Notes under the pieces: generated by a model | Database searches by the model: none | What the model was told of the DNA's origin: nothing | The model's input: the letters and a program-made list of their open reading frames with translations, nothing else | Part shown: piece after piece, positions 3,566 through 21,096 of the stretch | Numbering within the stretch: the first letter of the stretch is position 1 | How the letters are laid out: each line of letters opens with the position of its first letter | Source of the DNA: Aquabacterium sp. | GTDB lineage: Bacteria; Pseudomonadota; Gammaproteobacteria; Burkholderiales; Burkholderiaceae_C | Direction of reading: 5' to 3' | Assembly: GCA_023150345.1 (NCBI GenBank) | Contig: JAKLLB010000030.1 | Location: 1 to 41,334 of the forward strand | DNA: 41,334 bases | Made by a program: the position numbers and the translations under genes

Positions 3566-4670
3566 CTACAGCCCCTGCTTCAGGCTGGCTTCGATGAAGG
3601 CGTCGAGATCGCCGTCGAGCACCTTCTGGGTGTTGGAGATCTCGACGTTGGTGCGCAGGTCCTTGATGCGGCTCTGGTCGAGCACGTAGCTGCGGATCTG
3701 GTGGCCCCAGCCGACGTCGGTCTTGGTGTCTTCGAGCTTCTGCTGCTGCTCCATGCGCTTGCGCATCTCATGGTCATAGAGGCGCGAGCGCAGGCGGCGC
3801 CAGGCGACGTCGCGGTTGCTGTGCTGGCTGCGGCTGTCCTGGCACTGCACCACGATGCCAGTGGGGATGTGTGTCAGGCGCACGGCGGAGTCGGTCTTGT
3901 TGATGTGCTGGCCGCCGGCGCCCGAGGCGCGGAAGGTATCGGTGCGCACATCCGCCGGGTTGATGTCGATCTCGATCGAGTCGTCGATCTCGGGGTAGCA
4001 GAAGATGCTGGCGAAGCTGGTGTGGCGCCCGCCGGCGGAATCGAACGGGCTCTTGCGCACCAGGCGGTGCACGCCGGTCTCGGTGCGCAGGTGGCCGAAG
4101 GCGTAGTCGCCTTCGATCTTGAGCGTGGCGCTCTTGATGCCGGCCACGTCGCCCGGGGTCTCGTCTTCGACCGTGGCCTTGAAGCCCTTGCGCTCGCAGT
4201 ACTTGAGGTACTGGCGCAGGAGCATGGCGGCCCAGTCGCAGGCTTCGGTGCCTCCGGCGCCGGCCTGGATGTCGATGAAGCAGTTGCTCGGGTCGGCAGG
4301 GTTGCTGAACATGCGCCGGAACTCGAGCTGCTCGACGATTTCGCGCAACCGGCTGGCGTCGGCTTCGATGGAAGCCAGGGCATCGGTGTCGCTCTCGTCG
4401 CGCGACATCTCGAACAGCTCGGCGCTGTCGGACAAATTGGTCTCGAGGTGATCGATGGTGTCGACCACGGTTTCGAGCGTCTTCTTCTCGCGCCCGAGTT
4501 CCTGGGCTCGCTTGGGTTCGTTCCAGACGCTCGGGTTCTCGAGCGCGGCATTGACTTCGTTCAACCGCAGGGCTTTGCGGTCGTAGTCAAAGATACCCCC
4601 GGAGCTGCTGGGTGCGGGCGCTCAGATCGGCGAGCAGCGAGCCGATGGCGTTGATGCGTTCGATGTCCAT
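3566..4670 (-). CDS. prfB: Peptide chain release factor 2, expressed through a programmed +1 frameshift
   Basis: RF2 recognises UGA and UAA stop codons and triggers peptidyl-tRNA hydrolysis. The main frame carries the SPF anticodon-like tripeptide ([14 protein letters not shown]) and the catalytic GGQ ([15 protein letters not shown]). The start is not in the same frame. An ATG at 4668-4670 opens a 27-codon frame ([16 protein letters not shown]...RGYL) that ends at an in-frame UGA (4587-4589). Shifting +1 at CUU joins it to [13 protein letters not shown] and gives 367 residues, matching the usual 365. The span given covers both segments and needs a joined annotation at the shift. This is a functional recoded gene, not a pseudogene. 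A conventional caller would start it too late, for example at the TTG ending at 4564. Confidence 0.95.
4586..4602 (-). promoter_or_regulatory. prfB programmed +1 ribosomal frameshift site
   Basis: The mRNA reads CGG GGG UAU CUU UGA C. A GGGGG Shine-Dalgarno-like run sits three bases before the slippery CUU, which is followed by the RF2-read UGA and a C. This is the classical bacterial RF2 autoregulation element: low RF2 lets the ribosome pause at UGA and slip +1 to make more RF2. Every known component is present, and the downstream +1 frame continues directly into conserved RF2 sequence. Confidence 0.96.
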
Positions 4671-4905
4671 TTGATGACCGGATGACTGCGGCGCGGGCCG
4701 CGCGGCGAAACGCGAATTCTCGCATGCGAGCCTGACAACACGACCGTTGCGTGGCCTTGCGCCAGGCGATGAGGCCGATGGTGCGATGCAGCACCGAAGG
4801 GATGCGGGTTTGTCCGCCCCGGGACTGTGCCGGGGTGGCCCCGATTCGTCAGAGAGACGTAAGCCGCCGAATCGACGCTGCGAACCAGACGTACTGGAGG
4901 CTCAC

Positions 4906-5205
4906 TTGCTGTTGTTGGTGTCGTCGGTGAAGCTCGTGGCTGAGATCGCCTTGCTGGCGTTTGCAGGCCAGTGGTTGCTGGGCCTGCTGGCCGGCAAGAA
5001 GCGTGAGCAGAACCTGTTCTACAAGCTGCTGCAGGTGGTGACGGGCCCCTTCGTCAAGGGGGCGCGATGGGTGGCGCCGCGCCGCATCGTGATCGACCGG
5101 CACCTGCCGCTTGTGGCCGTGCTGCTGCTGGCTTTCGCATGGCTGGCCGCCACCATCACCAAGATCAGCCTGTGCCTGCAATCGGGGGTGAATCTGTGTC
5201 ACTGA
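4906..5205 (+). CDS. Small membrane protein of unknown function
   Basis: A 99-residue protein with two hydrophobic segments, one at the N-terminus (LLLVSSVKLVAEIALLAFAGQWLLGLLAG) and one near the C-terminus (HLPLVAVLLLAFAWLAATI). They are separated by a basic linker with FYKLLQVVTGPFVKGARWVAPRR. I choose the TTG start at 4906 because GGAGG lies at 4897-4901 and the hydrophobic segment starts at once; a start further upstream would add an unsupported tail. Its stop overlaps the start of the TPR gene by 10 bases, so the two are probably translationally coupled. I recognise it only as a conserved-looking Burkholderiales hypothetical and infer no function. Confidence 0.7.
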   Translation: MLLLVSSVKLVAEIALLAFAGQWLLGLLAGKKREQNLFYKLLQVVTGPFVKGARWVAPRRIVIDRHLPLVAVLLLAFAWLAATITKISLCLQSGVNLCH

Positions 5206-5777
5206 TCGATCCGCAATTCTGGGCCCGGCAGGGCCTGCGCATGGTGGCCATGGGCTGGCTGCTGGCTGGACGACCGCAGCGTGCTCAAGCGGTGTTCACG
5301 CAGATGCTGGAGCGCTGGCCGGGCGATGCCTATGCACTGGCCAGCCGCGCGTATGTCGCGGCGCAAGCCGGGCGGCTGGACGACGCCATTGCCGACGCGC
5401 ACTCGCTGGTCGAATTGCATCCGCAGCGCAGTGCGGGCGACTGGTTCAACCTGGCCTTCCTCCTCGAGCAACGAGACCGCCTCGACGAGGCCGAGCGGGC
5501 CTTCCGCCGCGCCCTGGAACTCGACCCCGAGCTCGACCGCGCCTGGTATGGGCTGGGCGTGGCGCTCATCCGCCAAAGCCGCTTCGACGAGGCCGTGGCC
5601 GCGCTCAAGCGCAACACCGAACTGCAACCCATGAGTCCGTACGGCTGGTACCAGCTGGCGCGGGTGCATGTGGATCGTCACGACCCCGACGAGGCCCGGC
5701 GGATCATCCGCCACCTCAAGGGGTTCGAGCCCAAGGTGGCCGCTCAACTCGAGCGGGAAACGGGGCTCGCCACGTGA
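5196..5777 (+). CDS. Tetratricopeptide-repeat protein
   Basis: A 193-residue helical repeat protein. TPR-type units are visible, for example DWFNLAFLLEQRDRLDEAER followed by AFRRALELDPELDRAWYGLG and then SRFDEAVAALKRNTELQP, with the canonical A/G-x-A-x-x-x-P spacing. The GTG start at 5196 is preceded by GGGGG at 5184-5188 and overlaps the upstream gene's stop, favouring coupled translation. There is no signal peptide; the N-terminus (VSLIDPQFWARQGLRMVAMGWLLAG) is only mildly hydrophobic. TPR proteins mediate protein-protein contacts, and the partner here is unknown. It lies 93 bases ahead of the symporter operon and may belong to the same transcription unit. Confidence 0.85.
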   Translation: MSLIDPQFWARQGLRMVAMGWLLAGRPQRAQAVFTQMLERWPGDAYALASRAYVAAQAGRLDDAIADAHSLVELHPQRSAGDWFNLAFLLEQRDRLDEAERAFRRALELDPELDRAWYGLGVALIRQSRFDEAVAALKRNTELQPMSPYGWYQLARVHVDRHDPDEARRIIRHLKGFEPKVAAQLERETGLAT

Positions 5778-5870
5778 TGGCAGGCAACGGGCGGACTGCC
5801 ACGCCCGAAGGGCGTCGTGGGGGCGTACGAGCCCTGATCCGACGGTTTCAACGATATGGAGGCGACTGCA

Positions 5871-6050
5871 ATGCAACTGACTGAGAAGCACCGCCAGTAC
5901 TGGTCGAAGAATCTACGGATCACGTCGATTCTGCTGGCCATCTGGTTCTTCGTGACGTTCGTGCTCGGGTTTTATTGCCTGATCATCTGGTACTACGCTA
6001 GGTACATGAACCGGCTGGACCAGGAACACGGCGTGGCCGAGGAGGAATGA
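5871..6050 (+). CDS. DUF4212 small subunit of a sodium/solute symporter
   Basis: A 59-residue inner-membrane protein, MQLTEKHRQYWSKNLRI..., with two hydrophobic stretches (ILLAIWFFVTFVLGFYCLIIWYY) and a charged C-terminus. The YW-x-K-N-L-R start and the FGxY/LGFYCLIIWYY pattern are typical of the DUF4212 (sodium symporter small subunit) family, which sits immediately upstream of the VC_2705-type symporter. The ATG at 5871 is preferred over that at 5856 because GGAGG at 5858-5862 is well placed for it. The stop lies one base from the next ATG (6052), indicating coupled expression with the large subunit. Confidence 0.9.
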   Translation: MQLTEKHRQYWSKNLRITSILLAIWFFVTFVLGFYCLIIWYYARYMNRLDQEHGVAEEE

Positions 6051-6051
6051 C

Positions 6052-8175
6052 ATGGCCGGCATGACCTTTGACCACGGATCGTCGACATCGGCGTCCGACA
6101 ACAAGGCGTTCAAGTCGCAGCTCAACAAGGTGTACGGCTGGTACACCGGCGGCTTCATCGCATTCGTCATCGTGCTCGCGGTGCTCGAGCAGATGGGGCT
6201 GCCACGCAACTGGATCGGCTTCACCTTCCTGCTGGCCACGGTGCTGCTGTATGCCGGTATCGGGGTGATGAGCCGCACCAGCGACGCCTCCGAGTACTAC
6301 GTGGCGGGGCGCCGGGTTCCGGCGCTCTACAACGGCATGGCCACCGGCGCCGACTGGATGAGCGCGGCGTCGTTCATCGGCATGGCCGGAACGCTCTACC
6401 TCAGCGGCTACGGCGGCCTGGCCTTCATCATGGGCTGGACCGGCGGCTACTGCCTGGTGGCGCTGTTCCTCGCGCCGTACCTGCGCAAGTTCGGGCAATT
6501 CACCATTCCCGACTTCCTGGGTGCACGCTACGAGGGCAACCTGCCCCGGTTGATCGGTATCTTCGCCGCCATCCTGTGCTCGTTCACGTATGTGGTGGCG
6601 CAGATCTACGGCGTGGGCATCATCACCACCCGCCTGTCGGGCCTGGCCTTCGAGATCGGGATCTTCGTCGGTCTGGGCGGCATCCTGGTGTGCTCCTTCC
6701 TGGGCGGCATGCGTGCCGTTACCTGGACGCAGGTGGCGCAGTACATCATCCTGATCATTGCCTACATGATCCCGTTGGTGTGGCTGTCGGTGAAGCAGAC
6801 CAGCGTGCCCATTCCGCAGGCGGTGTACGGATTCCAGCTGCAGAAGGTGACCGCGGCCGAGAACAAGCTGAAGACCGACCCGAAGGAGCTCGAGGTCATC
6901 GGCATCTTCAAGGCGAGGGCCGCCGAGTTCGACGCCAAGCTCAAGGACATTCCCGCCGCCATGGCCGCCGACAAGGCTGCCGCCGAGAAGAAGCTGGCCG
7001 ACCTGAAGGCCGCCAACGGCGCGCCTGCCGACATCCAGGCAGCCGAGAAGGCGCTGGCCTCGCAGCCGGCCGACGTGGCAGCGGCCAAGAAGGCCTGGAC
7101 CGCCGCCAAGGCAGCCAACGAAGCCCGTGCCAAGCCGCTGGCCGGCATGCCCCCGCATGCCAACCAGTTTGCGGGTGATCCGAACGGCGACGAGAAGGCC
7201 CGCAAGGCTTTCGACGAGTCGCGCCGCAACTTCCTGGCGCTGATCTTCTGCCTGATGGTGGGTACGGCCGCGTTGCCGCACATCCTGATGCGCTACTACA
7301 CCACCCCGTCGGTGAAGGAGGCGCGTGAGTCGGTCACGTGGAGCCTGTTCTTCATCTTCTTGCTGTACTTCTCGGCCCCGGCCCTGGCCGTGCTGGTGAA
7401 GTACGAGGTGTTCAGCGTGCTGGTGGGCACTCCGTTCGACAAGCTGCCGGCGTGGATTGCCAACTGGTCGCGCGTCGATCCGGGCCTGCTGAGTGTGGTG
7501 GACATCAACAAGGACGGCATCTTCCAGCTCGGCGAGATGAAGATCGGTGGCGACATCATCGTGCTGGCCACGCCGGAAATCGGTGGCCTGCCGTATGTGG
7601 TGTCGGGCATGGTGGCCGCTGGTGGCCTGGCAGCGGCGCTGTCGACCGCTGACGGCCTGCTGCTGACGATCGCCAACGCGCTGTCGCACGACCTGTACTA
7701 CAAGATGATCGACCCGAACGCGCCGACGAGCCGCCGCGTGGCCATCTCCAAGGCCCTGCTGCTGGTCGTGGCACTGTTGGCTGCCTCGGTGGCGGCGCAG
7801 AAGCCGGCGGACATCCTGTTCCTGGTTTCGGCGGCGTTCTCGTTCGCGGCGGCGGCGTTCTTCCCGGCGCTGGTGTGCGGCATCTTCTGGAAGCGCGCCA
7901 ACAAGTGGGGCGCGTCGCTGGGCATGATGGCTGGCCTGGGCACCACCTTCTACTACATGGCCACCACGCAGCCTTGGCTGCGCGGCATGTTCGGGGTGAC
8001 CAGCCCGATCGAGCTGTGGTGGGGCATCCAGCCCATCTCGGCTGGCCTGTTCGGCGTGCCGATCGGCTTTGCGGTGATCATCATCGTGAGCCTGCTGACC
8101 GGCGAGCCGCGCAAGGACACCCAGGAACTGGTGGAGCATGTGCGCTACCCCAACCTGAAGGGCATGAAGGCCTGA
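6052..8175 (+). CDS. Sodium:solute symporter, VC_2705-type (often annotated cation acetate symporter)
   Basis: A 707-residue SSS-family permease using the Na+ gradient to import a small solute, probably a carboxylate; the substrate is not provable here. Typical SSS segments include YYVAGRRVPALYNGMATGADWMSAASF near the N-terminus and SGMVAAGGLAAALSTADGLLL in the second half. Two additions stand out. Residues about 262-390 form an alanine/lysine/glutamate-rich, probably coiled-coil insert between membrane helices. Residues 484-495 read DINKDGIFQLGE, a close match to an EF-hand calcium loop. The product ends LVEHVRYPNLKGMKA. The gene follows the DUF4212 subunit by one base. The next gene starts 165 bases on, beyond a hairpin. 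Confidence 0.92.
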   Translation: MAGMTFDHGSSTSASDNKAFKSQLNKVYGWYTGGFIAFVIVLAVLEQMGLPRNWIGFTFLLATVLLYAGIGVMSRTSDASEYYVAGRRVPALYNGMATGADWMSAASFIGMAGTLYLSGYGGLAFIMGWTGGYCLVALFLAPYLRKFGQFTIPDFLGARYEGNLPRLIGIFAAILCSFTYVVAQIYGVGIITTRLSGLAFEIGIFVGLGGILVCSFLGGMRAVTWTQVAQYIILIIAYMIPLVWLSVKQTSVPIPQAVYGFQLQKVTAAENKLKTDPKELEVIGIFKARAAEFDAKLKDIPAAMAADKAAAEKKLADLKAANGAPADIQAAEKALASQPADVAAAKKAWTAAKAANEARAKPLAGMPPHANQFAGDPNGDEKARKAFDESRRNFLALIFCLMVGTAALPHILMRYYTTPSVKEARESVTWSLFFIFLLYFSAPALAVLVKYEVFSVLVGTPFDKLPAWIANWSRVDPGLLSVVDINKDGIFQLGEMKIGGDIIVLATPEIGGLPYVVSGMVAAGGLAAALSTADGLLLTIANALSHDLYYKMIDPNAPTSRRVAISKALLLVVALLAASVAAQKPADILFLVSAAFSFAAAAFFPALVCGIFWKRANKWGASLGMMAGLGTTFYYMATTQPWLRGMFGVTSPIELWWGIQPISAGLFGVPIGFAVIIIVSLLTGEPRKDTQELVEHVRYPNLKGMKA

Positions 8176-16364: not shown

Positions 16365-16835
16365 ATGCAGGCGATCTTTCCGCTCGGATGGGCGCACTAC
16401 CTGGCCGGTGGCGTGGCCATCGGGCTGGCGGTGGCACTGCTGTTCGTGCTCACCGGCCGCATCGGCGGCATGAGCACGGTGTTTTCGTCGAGCTGGTCAT
16501 GGCTGTCTCGGCGCAGCTATTTCCAGCAGCCGCGCTTTGTCGGCACGCGGGCGTGGCGGGCGGTGTTCGCGCTGGGACTGGTGCTTGGTGCCGGGCTGTG
16601 GTGGTGGCTGCAGGGTCCCGATCAACCGGTGCGCACCGGCCTGCCGCCGGGCGTGCTGCTCGCCGGCGGCCTGCTGGCGGGCTACGGCGCGCGGCTGTCT
16701 GGCGGTTGCACATCTGGCCACGGCATTTGCGGGTTGGGATCGGCGCAGATGCCATCGCTGGCAGCCGTGCTGGTGTTCATGGCCACGGGCTTTGCCACCG
16801 CGCTTGCGGTGCAGGCGATGGGGTGGCTGCCATGA
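16365..16835 (+). CDS. YeeE/YedE family sulfur-transport membrane protein
   Basis: A 156-residue inner-membrane protein with four hydrophobic segments and the conserved cysteine motif SGGCTSGHGICGLG in its second half, characteristic of the YeeE/YedE (DUF395) family. Family members move thiosulfate or other reduced sulfur; half-length proteins like this one usually work with a DUF6691 partner. That partner is encoded next, overlapping by four bases (ATGA). The ATG at 16365 is preceded by GAGAGGA within the end of the GNAT gene. The rhodanese-type sulfurtransferase 4 kb downstream may share its sulfur substrate, though they are not one operon. Confidence 0.88.
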   Translation: MQAIFPLGWAHYLAGGVAIGLAVALLFVLTGRIGGMSTVFSSSWSWLSRRSYFQQPRFVGTRAWRAVFALGLVLGAGLWWWLQGPDQPVRTGLPPGVLLAGGLLAGYGARLSGGCTSGHGICGLGSAQMPSLAAVLVFMATGFATALAVQAMGWLP

Positions 16836-17278
16836 CGCCGCTGTACCTGCTGGCCGTCTTGGGCTGCGGCGCTCTGTTCGGCTACGGGCTGGCGCTGTCC
16901 ACCATGATCCGCCCGGAGGTGGTGCTGTCCTTCCTGCGCGGACAGGACTTTGGTTTGATGCTGGTGATGGGCGGGGCCGTGGTGGTCACGTTCATGGCCT
17001 ACCGCTGGGCGCCGCGGCGCCTGCGCGCGCCGCTGCTGGGCGGGCAGTTCGACACCCACCCCTCGGTGATGAACCGCGACACGCTGCTGGGCGCGGCCAT
17101 CTTCGGCGTCGGCTGGGGCCTGTGCGGCGTGTGCCCAGGCCCGGCGATTGCCTCGCTCGGCGCGGGCAACCTGCCCACGCTGTGGGCGCTGGCGGGCATG
17201 GCGCTGGGCGCTTGGCTGCAGGGCGTGCAGGCCGATCGGCATGGTTCTGCGCCGGTGGCGGGGGCCCCGTCCGACTGA
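16832..17278 (+). CDS. DUF6691/YeeE-type sulfur-transport partner protein
   Basis: A 148-residue membrane protein that starts by ATGA overlap with the YeeE gene. It has four hydrophobic segments, starting LYLLAVLGCGALFGYGLALS, and the conserved WGLCGVCPGPAI motif with two Cys, matching the second half of full-length YeeE/YedE transporters. The pair probably assembles as one channel-like unit for a small sulfur compound. The C-terminus is a short hydrophilic tail. It is followed by 472 bases that hold the tryptophanase leader region, so it is the last gene of the GNAT-YeeE-DUF6691 group. Confidence 0.85.
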   Translation: MTPLYLLAVLGCGALFGYGLALSTMIRPEVVLSFLRGQDFGLMLVMGGAVVVTFMAYRWAPRRLRAPLLGGQFDTHPSVMNRDTLLGAAIFGVGWGLCGVCPGPAIASLGAGNLPTLWALAGMALGAWLQGVQADRHGSAPVAGAPSD

Positions 17279-17366
17279 TCCTGCCGGCATGAAGCCGGGA
17301 GGCGCCGCGGACCGTGCATCGCTCACGCGCATCGCCCAGTCACGGCCCGGGGCGTTGTGGCTTGGC

Positions 17367-17395
17367 TTGCGAGTCCACCCGAACCCTGGTATTTT
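17367..17395 (+). promoter_or_regulatory. Probable sigma-70 promoter of the tnaC-tnaA operon
   Basis: TTGCGA (17367-17372) and TATTTT (17390-17395) are separated by exactly 17 bases, and the A+T-rich -10 stands out in a GC-rich stretch. Transcription would start near 17402, just upstream of the leader peptide candidate starts. Each hexamer matches four of six consensus positions. Confidence 0.55.
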
Positions 17396-17433
17396 CCCGG
17401 CCTGTGATGCGAGCCGTTGACCGCCAGCCCTGG

Positions 17434-17556
17434 ATGAGCGCGTGCCTGCCCCGGCACGGCGCGCGCATGGCGCTGCCCGACGGCGGCGAGGGCACCTGGC
17501 TGCCCCGCTGGTACAACCTCGACATCGTGCTGAACGACGACTTCCCGCGAGTCTGA
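17434..17556 (+). CDS. tnaC: TnaC-like tryptophanase leader peptide
   Basis: A short frame ending WYNLDIVLNDDFPRV then UGA. Aligned without gaps to E. coli TnaC (WFNIDNKIVDHRP), the residues critical for tryptophan-induced ribosome stalling coincide: W (12 in E. coli), N14, D16, D21 and P24, with identical W-to-P spacing. Two residues (R, V) follow the Pro before UGA. The stop is 194 bases before tnaA, about the E. coli distance. The start is uncertain: in-frame ATGs at 17407, 17434 and 17467 give 49, 40 and 29 residues, none with a strong Shine-Dalgarno. I chose 17434 because it leaves about 30 bases of leader after the predicted start site. Role by homology: free Trp stalls the ribosome, blocks Rho and lets tnaA be transcribed. 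Confidence 0.85.
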   Translation: MSACLPRHGARMALPDGGEGTWLPRWYNLDIVLNDDFPRV

Positions 17557-17750
17557 GTTCGGCCGCGGCCGTTCGCCCGGGCTGGGCCCGCGGCGCCACT
17601 GGCCGTATCAGTGCCCAAGCCGAGGGCGCACCCCACACCACCTGTTTGTCGACTCACGGCGCCTGTGCCCGCGAGCGGCGCATGCGTGCCATCCGGCTTT
17701 GAGCGCCGAGGGCCGCGTGGCGCCTGCCTTGTGCGGCCGGCGTCTCAGCC
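17557..17750 (+). promoter_or_regulatory. tnaC-tnaA spacer with candidate Rho utilisation region
   Basis: This 194-base transcribed spacer contains no convincing gene. The stretch around 17626-17660 is C-rich and G-poor (CGCACCCCACACCACCTG), the composition expected of a rut site just after the tnaC stop. In the E. coli system Rho binds here unless a Trp-stalled ribosome covers it. No intrinsic terminator is evident. Confidence 0.5.
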
Positions 17751-19238
17751 ATGGAATTCACCGTCATGACCACCCGCGTACGTCCCTTGCCCGAGCCCTT
17801 TCGCATCAAGATGGTCGAGCCCATCCGCCTGGCGCCGCCCGATCAGCGCCGCCGAGCGCTGCAGCAGGCCGGCTGGAACCTGTTCCTGCTCGATGCCGAG
17901 GATGTCTACATCGACCTGCTCACCGACAGCGGCACCGGTGCCATGAGCGACCGCCAGTGGGCGGGCCTCATGCTGGGCGACGAGTCCTACGCCGGCAGCC
18001 GCAACTACCTGCACCTGCGCGACACGGTGCGCGAACTGTTCGGTTACCCGTACACCATCCCCACCCACCAGGGCCGCGGTGCCGAGCAGATCCTGTTCCC
18101 CGAACTGGTGACGCGCGCGCTCGCACGCCGGCCCGACGTGCAGCCGGTGTTCATCTCGAACTTCCACTTCGACACCACCAAGGCGCATGTGGAGATGGCC
18201 GGCGCCCGGGCGCTGAACGTGCTCACACCGCGGGCCACAGACACCGCCGACCCCTACCCCTGGAAGGGCAACTTCGACCTCGATGCCCTGCGCGCGGCGA
18301 TCGCCCAGCACGGTGCGGCATCGGTGGCCGGCATCGTGGCCACCCTCACCTGCAACAGCGCCGGCGGCCAGCCGGTGTCGATGGACAACCTGGCCGCGGT
18401 GCGCGAGATTGCCACGCGCCACGGCATACCGGTGGTGCTGGACGTGGCCCGTTATGCCGAGAACGCCTGGTTCATCCGTGAGCGCGACCCGGCATGGGCG
18501 GGTGCGAGCATCGCCGAGATCGTGCGGGCCATGTTCGACCTGGGCGACATGTTCACCATGTCGGCCAAGAAGGACGGCCTGGTCAACATCGGCGGCCTGT
18601 GCTGCTTCCGTGACGACGAAGACCTGTTCCGCGCGGTGCAGGCGCGCTGCGTGCCGATGGAGGGCTTCGTCACCTACGGCGGCCTGGCCGGGCGCGACAT
18701 GGAGGCGCTGGCGGTGGGCCTGCGCGAATCGCTGCAGCAGGAGTACCTGGACTACCGCATTGGCCAGGTGGCCTACCTGGGCGAGCGCCTGCAGCAGCAG
18801 GGCATCCCGATCCAGACGCCCACAGGCGGCCATGCGGTGTTCGTCGATGCGCGGCGCATGTTGCCGCACATCCCGGCGCACCGCTTCCCGGCGCATTCGC
18901 TGGCGGTGGCGCTGTACCTCGAGGGCGGTGTCCGCGCGGTGGAGATCGGCTCGCTGCTGCTGGGCCGCAATCCGCTCACCGGGGAACAGGAGCCCGCACC
19001 CATGGAACTGCTGCGCCTGACGATCCCGCGGCGCACCTACACCCACAGCCACATGGACTACGTGGCCGATGTGTTCGGTGACCTGCGGCGCATGGCCGCC
19101 ACCCTTCCGGGTTATGACTTCGAGTGGGAGCCGGCGGTACTGCGCCACTTCACGGCGCGACTGAAGCCGGTGGCCTGCGATGGCGGCGCGGCGGCAGCGC
19201 AGTCGCGCGAATCGGCGGCCCAGGCCCAGCCGGCGTGA
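17751..19238 (+). CDS. tnaA: Tryptophanase
   Basis: A 495-residue PLP enzyme that splits L-tryptophan to indole, pyruvate and ammonia. The PLP lysine is K274 in MSAKKDG. It is assigned as tryptophanase rather than tyrosine phenol-lyase from FDTT (D141, the position of TnaA Asp137), [13 protein letters not shown] (Ile where tyrosine phenol-lyase has Arg), [15 protein letters not shown] and LRHFTARLK, plus the Trp-sensing leader upstream. The C-terminus carries an extra Ala/Gln-rich tail of about 25 residues. Start choice is between ATG 17751 and ATG 17766; neither has a clear Shine-Dalgarno. No tryptophan permease gene follows, unlike tnaCAB operons. Indole may serve as a signal or nitrogen release; this is inference. 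Confidence 0.93.
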
Positions 19239-19356
19239 GTTCACCTGTTGTACGGCAACCCTCGGCAGGGGGGGTAGACCCGCCGCCCGTGAAGAGCGCT
19301 CACCCTCGGGGCTGGCCCGCAGTGCGCTGGTGGGGTCGGGGGCGTAAGCTCGCGCG

Positions 19357-21096
19357 ATGCCCACGCACCGCACCGGGTCTGCCAGCCACACGGCCTTGAC
19401 CGCCGATCCCTACGACATCCTGCACCACGGTTTCCACTGGCAGGTGCCGGCGCGCTTCAACATCGCGCAGGCCTGCTGCAGCCGCTGGGCGCAGGCCACG
19501 CCACAGGCGGTGGCGGTGCGCCTGCACGAGGACGACGGCCCCGGCGCCACGCTGACCTACGGCGCGCTGCAGCAGCAGGCACTGCGGCTGGCGCAGGCGC
19601 TGCGGCGCCACGGCGTGGGCCGCGGCGACCGTGTGGCGGTGGTGCTGCCCCAGGGATTCGAGGCGCCGGCGGCGCACATGGCGCTGTACTTCATGGGCGC
19701 GGTGGCGATGCCGCTGTCCATGTTGTTCGGGCCCGAGGCGCTGGAGTACCGGCTGCGCGACAGCGGGGCGGTCGCCGCCATCGGCGATGCCCTCACGCTG
19801 CCCGCTCTGCGCCAGGTGCGCGCGGCCTGCCCGGCGCTGCGGCTGCTGGTGGCGGTGCAGGCCGAGCCCCTGTCCGACGAGGCGGCCTGGGCGACCCTGC
19901 AGCAGGCGCACGGACCGCTTGCCGAAACGGTGGACACCGCGGCAGACGATGCGGCGGTGCTCATCTACACCAGCGGCACCACGGGGCCACCCAAGGGCGC
20001 GCTGATTCCGCACCGTGCGTTGATTGGCAACCTCACCGGCTTCGTGTGCAGCCAGAACTGGTTCCCGCAGCACGACGCGGTGTTCTGGTCACCCGCTGAT
20101 TGGGCCTGGACCGGTGGCCTGATGGATGCGCTGCTGCCCACGCTGTACTTCGGCCGCGAGATCGTGGCCTGGCGCGGCCGCTTCACGCCCGAGCGCGCAT
20201 TCGAGCTGATGCAGCGCCACCGGGTGACGCACACCTTCTTGTTCCCCACCGCGCTGAAGGCGATGATGAAGGCGGTGCCCGAGCCGGGCGCGCGCTACAC
20301 GCTGGAGTTGCGCGCCTTGATGAGTGCCGGCGAGGCGGTGGGCGACACCGTGTTCGCCTGGTGCCGCGATGCGCTGGGCGTGGCGGTCAACGAGATGTTC
20401 GGCCAGACCGAGATCAACTACATCGTGGGCAACTGCGGGCGCTGGATCGACTCCCGTGGGCAGGCGCATCCGGGCTGGCCGGCGCGCCCGGGAAGCATGG
20501 GCCGCGCCTACCCCGGCCATCGCGTGGCGGTGATCGACGACGCGGGGCACGAGTGCCCGCGCGGCACGCCGGGTGACGTGGCGGTGCACCGGCTCGATGG
20601 GCATGGCCACCCCGACCCGGTGTTTTTCCTGGGCTACTGGGGCAACGAAGCGGCCACGCGGGCCAAATACACCGGCGACCCGGCTGCCAGCTGGTGCCGC
20701 ACCGGCGACACCGCGGTGATGGACGACGACGGCTACCTCTGGTACCAGGGCCGCAGCGACGATGTGTTCAAGGCCGCCGGCTACCGCATCGGCCCCAGCG
20801 AGATCGAGAACTGCCTGGTGCGCCATCCGGCCGTGGCCAACGCCGCCGTGGTGCCCAAGCCCGATGCCGAGCGCGGCGCGCTGGTCAAGGCGTACGTGGT
20901 GCTCGCAGCGGGCTGGCAGGCCAGCGCCGAACTCGTGGCCGATCTGCAGCAGCATGTGAAGGGCCGGCTCGCGCCCTATGAGTACCCCAAGGAAATCGAG
21001 TTCATCGATGCCCTGCCGATGACGACCACCGGCAAGGTGCAGCGGCGCGTGCTGCGCTTGCAGGAAGAGGAGCGGGCGCGCGCCGCGGGGCGGTGA
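19357..21096 (+). CDS. AMP-dependent acyl-CoA synthetase
   Basis: A 579-residue ANL-superfamily enzyme that activates a carboxylic acid to acyl-AMP and then acyl-CoA. The ATP loop is YTSGTTGPPKG (204-214), and later motifs are FGQTEINYIVGN, YQGRSDDVFKAAGYRIGPSEIE and the catalytic lysine near the C-terminus in PMTTTGKVQRR. The sequence is closest in feel to acetyl/medium-chain acyl-CoA synthetases (ACSM-like). No substrate is proven. The start ATG 19357 has no Shine-Dalgarno but follows GTAAGC by seven bases, a possible leaderless promoter. It follows tnaA by 118 bases on the same strand, so it may be read through. Confidence 0.88.
   Translation: MPTHRTGSASHTALTADPYDILHHGFHWQVPARFNIAQACCSRWAQATPQAVAVRLHEDDGPGATLTYGALQQQALRLAQALRRHGVGRGDRVAVVLPQGFEAPAAHMALYFMGAVAMPLSMLFGPEALEYRLRDSGAVAAIGDALTLPALRQVRAACPALRLLVAVQAEPLSDEAAWATLQQAHGPLAETVDTAADDAAVLIYTSGTTGPPKGALIPHRALIGNLTGFVCSQNWFPQHDAVFWSPADWAWTGGLMDALLPTLYFGREIVAWRGRFTPERAFELMQRHRVTHTFLFPTALKAMMKAVPEPGARYTLELRALMSAGEAVGDTVFAWCRDALGVAVNEMFGQTEINYIVGNCGRWIDSRGQAHPGWPARPGSMGRAYPGHRVAVIDDAGHECPRGTPGDVAVHRLDGHGHPDPVFFLGYWGNEAATRAKYTGDPAASWCRTGDTAVMDDDGYLWYQGRSDDVFKAAGYRIGPSEIENCLVRHPAVANAAVVPKPDAERGALVKAYVVLAAGWQASAELVADLQQHVKGRLAPYEYPKEIEFIDALPMTTTGKVQRRVLRLQEEERARAAGR

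Follow-up and report, generated by a model that had tools for sequence, protein, structure and literature searches.

TnaC is a well-studied arrest peptide that senses a small molecule, and the experimental work on it that we found rests on E. coli and P. vulgaris. According to the passages of PMC10941005 and PMC3902921 on which we draw, W12, D16, I19 and P24 of E. coli TnaC are needed for the arrest induced by Trp. The E. coli K-12 peptide (WFNIDNKIVDHRP) has 24 amino acids and ends in Pro-stop, so the blocked step there is release by RF2; in passages of PMC3902921, L-Trp stops RF2 from releasing the E. coli peptide at P24, and in P. vulgaris it blocks transfer to the Lys33 tRNA. The same passages give P. 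vulgaris TnaC a W20, D24 and P32 at the E. coli spacing, a Leu at the position of I19 and a sense codon past the Pro, where arrest blocks the next aminoacyl-tRNA, and they describe the E. coli system as Rho-dependent. From passages of PMC8429421 we take that with R23F E. coli TnaC reaches half-maximal stalling at about 30-fold less Trp, that Phe is frequent at position 23 among TnaC homologues, and that Lys90 of uL22 and the 23S rRNA pair A752:U2609 take part in the arrest.

The DNA analyzed here, a stretch of 41,334 nucleotides from Aquabacterium sp. that we call the window, carries a putative leader of this kind in front of a tryptophanase gene. We consider it probable (about 0.87), judging from sequence, that this leader is a TnaC-type arrest peptide at which a Trp-induced stall switches tnaA on. 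The features of the locus are:

17367..17395, + strand: TTGCGA-17-TATTTT, a weak resemblance to a promoter in which 8 of 12 positions fit the consensus
17407..17556, + strand: tnaC-type leader open reading frame, 49 amino acids if the start is ATG 17407
17509..17547, + strand: WYNLDIVLNDDFP, the conserved core, which aligns with positions 12-24 of E. coli TnaC
17548..17553, + strand: Arg-Val, a two-residue extension past the Pro, with Arg the predicted A-site codon of an arrested ribosome
17554..17556, + strand: leader stop TGA, the stop in 57 of 58 leaders
17557..17750, + strand: tnaC-tnaA spacer of 194 nt, with the palindrome CGGCCGCGGCCG at 17560-17571 near its start
17751..19238, + strand: tnaA, tryptophanase, 495 amino acids; the real start may be ATG 17766

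The leader frame ends in WYNLDIVLNDDFPRV-TGA on the + strand, with its Trp codon at 17509-17511, its Pro codon at 17545-17547 and its stop at 17554-17556. The preliminary description had placed a short frame 194 bases 5' of tryptophanase, and the coordinates agree: the TGA ends at 17556 and the ATG of tnaA is at 17751, a gap of 194 nt. Its gapless alignment to E. coli TnaC also holds, since against K-12 the segment from W12 to P24 is ungapped and W12, N14, D16, D21 and P24 are identical. The two peptides further share a UGA stop and a position 5' of tnaA, and they differ in that K-12 has R23 where the window has F23, and has a tnaB. Our comparison with P. vulgaris TnaC is drawn from its published description and not from its sequence; in the passages concerned the codon past the Pro is Lys and the operon is tnaCAB, whereas here that codon is Arg or His, D22 and the UGA are nearly fixed, and the genome gave no match to the tnaB family. 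The Arg-Val extension past the Pro, reported earlier as a feature of this leader, is present but is not unique, because P. vulgaris TnaC continues past Pro32 with Lys33 (passages of PMC3902921).

ATG 17434 (40 amino acids) and ATG 17467 (29 amino acids) are as possible as leader starts as ATG 17407. We saw no clear Shine-Dalgarno sequence before any of the three, so the leader may be 49, 40 or 29 amino acids long; in relatives such as L034 and L125, purine-rich tracts precede the leader ATG. The promoter claimed for this leader has the correct 17-base spacing but is weak, as TTGCGA at 17367 and TATTTT at 17390 each match 4 of 6 consensus positions, and a scan requiring at least 9 of 12 matches found no promoter before the leader. 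In the near relative L031 the TATTTT is retained and the TTGCGA reads TTGCCT.

To judge how often such a frame would be seen by chance, we simulated the full window 300 times with a first-order Markov model and scanned both strands. The pattern W...D..[ILVM]....P, no more than 4 residues from a stop, occurred on average 0.04 times per simulated window and once in the real one, and the stricter pattern of the preliminary description, W.N.D....D..P, occurred in none of the 300 and once in the real window. An HMM built from the other loci, leaving out the window and its near-copy L031, ranked the window frame at the top of 837 six-frame segments (E 4.6e-9). The frame was also at the top with an HMM built from gammaproteobacterial Pro-type cores alone, not significantly (E 0.27; runner-up 0.37). 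As a positive control, the leader scan recovered E. coli K-12 tnaC. A tblastn search of plasmids with the 49-residue leader gave weak matches only (E at least 2), and there was no tryptophanase leader among the best 20 of the 28 matches listed.

The existing family models, Pfam PF08053 (Tna_leader) and NCBIfam TIGR02616 (tnaC_leader), do not report the window leader. At E of 10 or less, TIGR02616 matches 12 of 16 typed leaders and PF08053 matches 2 of 16. When betaproteobacterial-type leaders were scored singly against TIGR02616, three scored 13.5-16.5 bits, short of the cut-off of 23.55, and the Propionivibrio leader gave no match; E. coli TnaC scores 44.3 bits. Alignments of the relatives to TIGR02616 stay in register as far as the Pro.

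Family and key residues identify the predicted product of the downstream gene as tryptophanase. It matches NCBIfam NF009709 with 704 bits (E 7.5e-212) and the equivalog model TIGR02617 with 695 bits, which is under the cut-off of 825.8; its closest PDB match is the tryptophanase 1ax4, and it shares 241 identical residues with the 471-residue E. coli TnaA. We compared 20 chosen E. coli TnaA positions, which we take to be functionally important residues, and 18 of them are identical in the window TnaA, including Y74, D137, K270 and H463; V59 and M226 differ. The genome has one TnaA match, and TnaA is absent from all four sampled congeners (E 1e-80). The gene after tnaA encodes an acyl-CoA ligase-like protein, and in the genome, which is 94% complete, there is no match to Trp_Tyr_perm (the TnaB family, PF03222) at E of 0.001 or less. 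Of the tna operon proposed earlier we thus find a tnaC-type leader 5' of tnaA, and we do not class it as tnaCAB, since no tnaB family match was found. On the ribosomal side, the host genome keeps uL22 Lys90, and no 23S rRNA, with its TnaC-related positions A752, U2609 and A2058, was found in the assembly.

Upstream of the leader, two YeeE/YedE-type sulphur transport genes (PF04143, PF20398) lie at window positions 16365-17278, flanked by a GNAT gene and tnaC. The near-identical L031 lacks about 930 bases of this region (16418-17345), and homology picks up again just upstream of tnaC. An Rfam search of 16800-19400 found no fitting element; its sole hit, mir-592 at 19138-19225 in the 3' end of tnaA, scored 28.9 bits against a gathering threshold of 67 and was taken as chance.

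We compared 137 TnaA loci, counting the window's own, and sorted them by identity to the window TnaA. They came from a collection of named species (17 loci), from samples of genomes of the same family, order, class and phylum, from plasmids (11 of 76 matching plasmid records were taken in) and from E. coli K-12; for the family f28, all 61 genomes were searched for TnaA (E 1e-150). At 65.5% identity or more, a cut (~66%) that we picked after the data were seen, there are 59 loci; one of them (L065) is without upstream sequence, and the leader is present in all 58 others. Leaving out the window and its 98% identical near-copy, this is 56 of 56. Among the 58 leaders, 57 have the Pro no more than 4 residues from the stop, and L108 has a tail of five. 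Loci at 60-65% identity comprise one with a Pro-type leader, five with the sensor part only and 11 with none; for one of the 11 (L046) the match starts at residue 131, so that it is no fair test. At 50-59% we found eight Pro-type leaders, two of which are E. coli, four with the sensor part only and nine loci with none, and below 50% the leader occurs in none of 40 loci. Nine TnaC-like leaders (L076, L077, L126, L128, L036, L085, L130, L132 and L134), several of them from Vibrio, are without a Pro at position 24. They keep W-x3-D-x2-[IL], as in WYNVDYTLSLLNKETLLS and WYTLDHQLSFHLSSE, which is the sensor part without the known arrest residue.

In f28, which is probably Chromobacteriaceae (a guess on our part), 49 of 49 TnaA-bearing genomes have the leader. 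Other carriers are a second Burkholderiaceae record (L032, TnaA 88%) and Propionivibrio dicarboxylicus (L033, 79%), and, outside the betaproteobacteria, Aeromonas piscicola and A. salmonicida (L034 and L035, 71%) and the alphaproteobacterium Tistrella mobilis, on plasmid pTM3 (L075, 66%). The claim that this is a betaproteobacterial extension of TnaC is therefore right in that the window, L032 and Propionivibrio carry the leader, and too narrow in that the leaders of Aeromonas and Tistrella are of the same type. As to the search of Burkholderiales tnaA 5' regions that had been proposed as a check, the leader is present in the second Burkholderiaceae record, and the TnaA loci of Variovorax, Acidovorax and Chitinasiproducens, at 62-65% identity, have no such leader. 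In the Propionivibrio record (L033), on the opposite strand downstream of tnaA, positions 4463-6216 hold what by eye are genes like those for elongation factor P and the rhamnosyltransferase EarP.

On a TnaA tree, the window groups with L031, L032 and Propionivibrio (SH-aLRT 100), apart from the branch of Variovorax, Acidovorax and Chitinasiproducens. The tree was made by a quick method with 103 of the 137 loci, including nine hand-picked from the 40 of low identity, and its deep order is unsure because branches are long and partly unsupported. Presence and absence of the leader require 10 state changes on it, and the tree cannot tell gain from loss. Given that the Variovorax, Acidovorax and Chitinasiproducens TnaAs lack the leader and form their own branch, inheritance of the leader as a betaproteobacterial trait is counted against. 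Horizontal spread of a tnaCA cassette fits the distribution, with loss of the leader in some lineages as the alternative. The tnaC-tnaA pair of Tistrella lies within 585154-591542 of pTM3, which PLSDB types as conjugative, and a plasmid of this type is a possible vehicle for such spread.

Conservation was assessed on 57 leaders, the window's and 56 others, with 51 distinct DNA cores and 26 distinct peptides from W to P. The residues W12, D16, L19, D22, F23 and P24 (E. coli numbering) are invariant in all 57. The leader scan itself asked for W12, D16, P24 and a hydrophobic residue at 19, and it set no condition on D22 or F23. The invariant residues include the set required in E. coli, namely W12, D16, P24 and I or L at 19. 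The spacing W-x3-D-x2-[IL]-x4-P, also demanded by the scan, is found in 57 of 57 and likewise in L108 with its longer tail. Position 25 is Arg in 49 leaders and His in eight. D21 had been listed as conserved, and the window does match E. coli there, but across the 57 leaders this position varies (Y 21, D 15, F 13, N 6, C 2), and the invariant Asp is D22.

Within the core, pN/pS is 0.224 in frame, and a shift into either of the other two frames raises it to 1.36 and 2.14. In the flanks it is 0.941 (39 nt after the stop) and 1.040 (39 nt before the W codon), values that indicate lack of conservation and are not rates, because the comparison is ungapped, near saturation and of sequence that is not alignable. 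To judge from these substitutions, the leader is selected as a peptide, with its C-terminal end kept and its N-terminal part free, which is the pattern of an arrest peptide. We discarded the idea of recoding at the UGA, helped by a hairpin downstream, since no constraint is seen on the codons past the stop (pN/pS 0.94).

The leader stop is TGA in all but one of the 58 loci, L059 having TAG, and this is one change on the TnaA tree. In the same loci the tnaA stop is TGA in 24, TAA in 19 and TAG in 12, with three not read, and it changes 12 times. The extension from Pro to stop is exactly two residues in 56 of the 58; L059, with its TAG, has three and L108 has five. Of the nine Pro-type leaders below 65.5% TnaA identity, just two end in TGA. 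The E. coli H240 record (L082) and K-12 (L139) encode the same TnaC peptide, followed by TAA in the former and by TGA in the latter.

By composition, the window gives no support to the C-rich, rut-like tract that had been described after the leader. The spacer there has C 0.40 and G 0.36, and its best C-minus-G over 78 nt, 13, is lower than the 16 reached within the first 300 nt of tnaA. Family spacers have C above G in 55 of 57 cases and a C-over-G excess above that of tnaA in 44 of 57; the mean C/G values are close, 0.352/0.286 for the spacer and 0.339/0.297 for tnaA. By this measure even the E. coli K-12 spacer is barely distinct (C 0.16, G 0.18; best 78 nt 8 versus 6).

What many of the relatives have past the stop is a hairpin, a claim that we base on shuffles over 57 loci and on 54 distinct sequences. 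A perfect stem of at least 5 bp with at least four GC pairs, starting 5-12 nt past the leader stop, is present in 31 of 57 loci, which are related and so are not 31 independent cases; dinucleotide shuffles (200 rounds) gave a mean of 4.3 and a maximum of 12. The fold z over the 54 distinct sequences averages -1.37 in the first 34 nt, with 20 of 54 below -2, and 0.04, 0.30 and -0.22 in later stretches. There is a further peak of stems 57-64 nt past the stop (16 of 57 loci, a raw count without shuffle comparison). The stem sequences differ among loci, and U/C-rich tails stand behind many of them; in L048, L051, L088, L092 and L100, for example, a GC-rich hairpin lies about 6-10 nt past the tnaC stop with a U/C-rich tail. 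The stem is mostly absent in genus g201 and is absent in Propionivibrio. The window itself has a 5-bp stem at +10, but its fold z of -0.6 falls short of significance, and the terminator search gave no intrinsic terminator there. RNAalifold on a MAFFT alignment of 24 post-stop sequences, picked because most of them had a stem, gave no consensus pairs. The hairpin may be a polymerase pause hairpin or a weak terminator hairpin.

We class the window leader with TnaC because of its sequence, its place and the selection on it. The central claim of the preliminary description, a TnaC-type leader of a tryptophanase in a betaproteobacterium, is upheld by the 58 loci, the purifying selection, the tryptophanase 3' of it and the uL22 Lys90. 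At the level of sequence, then, this is a conserved and selected TnaC-shaped leader before a tryptophanase gene, in a host that keeps uL22 Lys90. From there we infer that the leader is translated and arrests in response to Trp, as well as at which step it stalls and how transcription ends. A ribosome would translate the leader, and plentiful free L-Trp would bind within the exit tunnel, next to the WxNxDxxL part of the nascent chain. The ribosome would then stall with Pro24 in the P site and the Arg or His codon next; Arg as the A-site codon is predicted by analogy with Lys33 of P. vulgaris (passages of PMC3902921). As the window Pro is followed by Arg, the arrest would be one of elongation as in P. 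vulgaris, and the blocked step is most likely transfer of the peptide to Arg-tRNA, not RF2 release directly past the Pro. The stalled ribosome would prevent transcription from ending in the 194-nt spacer, and transcription that passes the spacer would lead to tnaA being made and tryptophan being degraded. At low Trp the ribosome would finish at the UGA and leave, and transcription would stop early, by Rho or at another site. F23 is predicted to confer high sensitivity to Trp. Counting against an arrest peptide are the miss by PF08053 and TIGR02616, the weak promoter, the lack of a clear Shine-Dalgarno sequence, the lack of a rut signature in the window and the Burkholderiales TnaAs of 62-65% identity that have no leader. 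A simple arrest model also leaves two facts over, the hairpin past the stop in many relatives and the nearly fixed UGA, which it does not predict because arrest at the Pro leaves the stop two codons on free.

Those two facts bear on where the ribosome stalls and on what it controls. The arrest could be one of termination at the UGA: the residue that follows Arg/His would occupy the P site and RF2 would be the factor blocked, as in E. coli but two codons later. The contrast between a leader stop that is TGA in 57 of 58 loci and a tnaA stop that drifts speaks for this, as does the constant two-residue extension. The distance from W to Pro, however, equals the one in E. coli, and none of the 57 leaders varies at Phe23 or Pro24, which argues that Pro and not residue 26 is in the P site; the P. 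vulgaris stall is at a sense codon (passages of PMC3902921), and L059 and L108 depart from the two-residue rule, the former with TAG. We regard termination arrest as unlikely. A second alternative, a little less unlikely, concerns what lies downstream: the stalled ribosome would control the hairpin right past the stop, as a polymerase pause or weak terminator, in place of Rho loading at a rut site. The excess of stems over shuffles, to which the window contributes, the confinement of the low fold z to the first 34 nt, and stems that vary in sequence with U/C-rich tails behind many all favor it, but the loci are kin, g201 mostly and Propionivibrio entirely lack the stem, another peak lies at 57-64 nt, and neither the window's own z, its want of an intrinsic terminator nor the RNAalifold result lends support.

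Two further explanations do away with arrest altogether. Under classical attenuation the ribosome would wait at UGG when charged tRNA-Trp is short, and there are indeed Trp codons just 5' of the regulated gene, one in the core and two more upstream if the start is 17407. Such control would induce a degradative gene under Trp shortage, and it would leave the invariant D16, L19, D22, F23 and P24 unaccounted for, and with no intrinsic terminator found we think it very improbable. That the frame is due to chance, or is the conserved end of an unrelated small protein, is hardly credible: the peptide is short and named by neither Pfam nor NCBIfam, but only 0.04 matches are expected per window by simulation, every one of the 58 loci within one range of TnaA identity has the leader, and selection acts at the codon level on the last residues with the N-terminal part free. 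The Trp-induced arrest peptide that stalls at Pro24 is the reading that we prefer.

The kind of leader is known, as TnaC; it is the lineage that is little noticed, and priority is not claimable. A betaproteobacterial tnaA is already in print, with Chromobacterium violaceum in a table of PMC8537960. In open-access literature on Burkholderia, Aeromonas, Chromobacterium, Chromobacteriaceae, Vibrio and Betaproteobacteria, no such leaders were found among the matches listed, and an earlier betaproteobacterial alignment is possible.

It is conceivable, if rather doubtful, that leaders of the D22-F23-P24-[R/H]25-x-UGA lineage make up a TnaC type of their own, with two checkpoints and a ribosome-hairpin geometry instead of a rut site. 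If so, Trp would block transfer to Arg/His at the Pro, the selected UGA and the hairpin would set how long the ribosome dwells, and the hairpin would sit at the leading edge of the ribosome, next to the UGA. Such a two-checkpoint tnaCA cassette would have been taken up by beta-, gamma- and alphaproteobacteria, in the genome of the window at least without tnaB. For the arrest peptide itself, the lineage offers 26 distinct natural W-to-P cores that show which positions are unchanged across 57 leaders. It carries the hypersensitive Phe23 throughout these 57, and it offers a natural test of whether RF2 or an aminoacyl-tRNA acceptor is needed for arrest. The finding would also widen possible Trp-controlled indole production to bacteria whose leaders are missed by annotation models or fall under their cut-offs.
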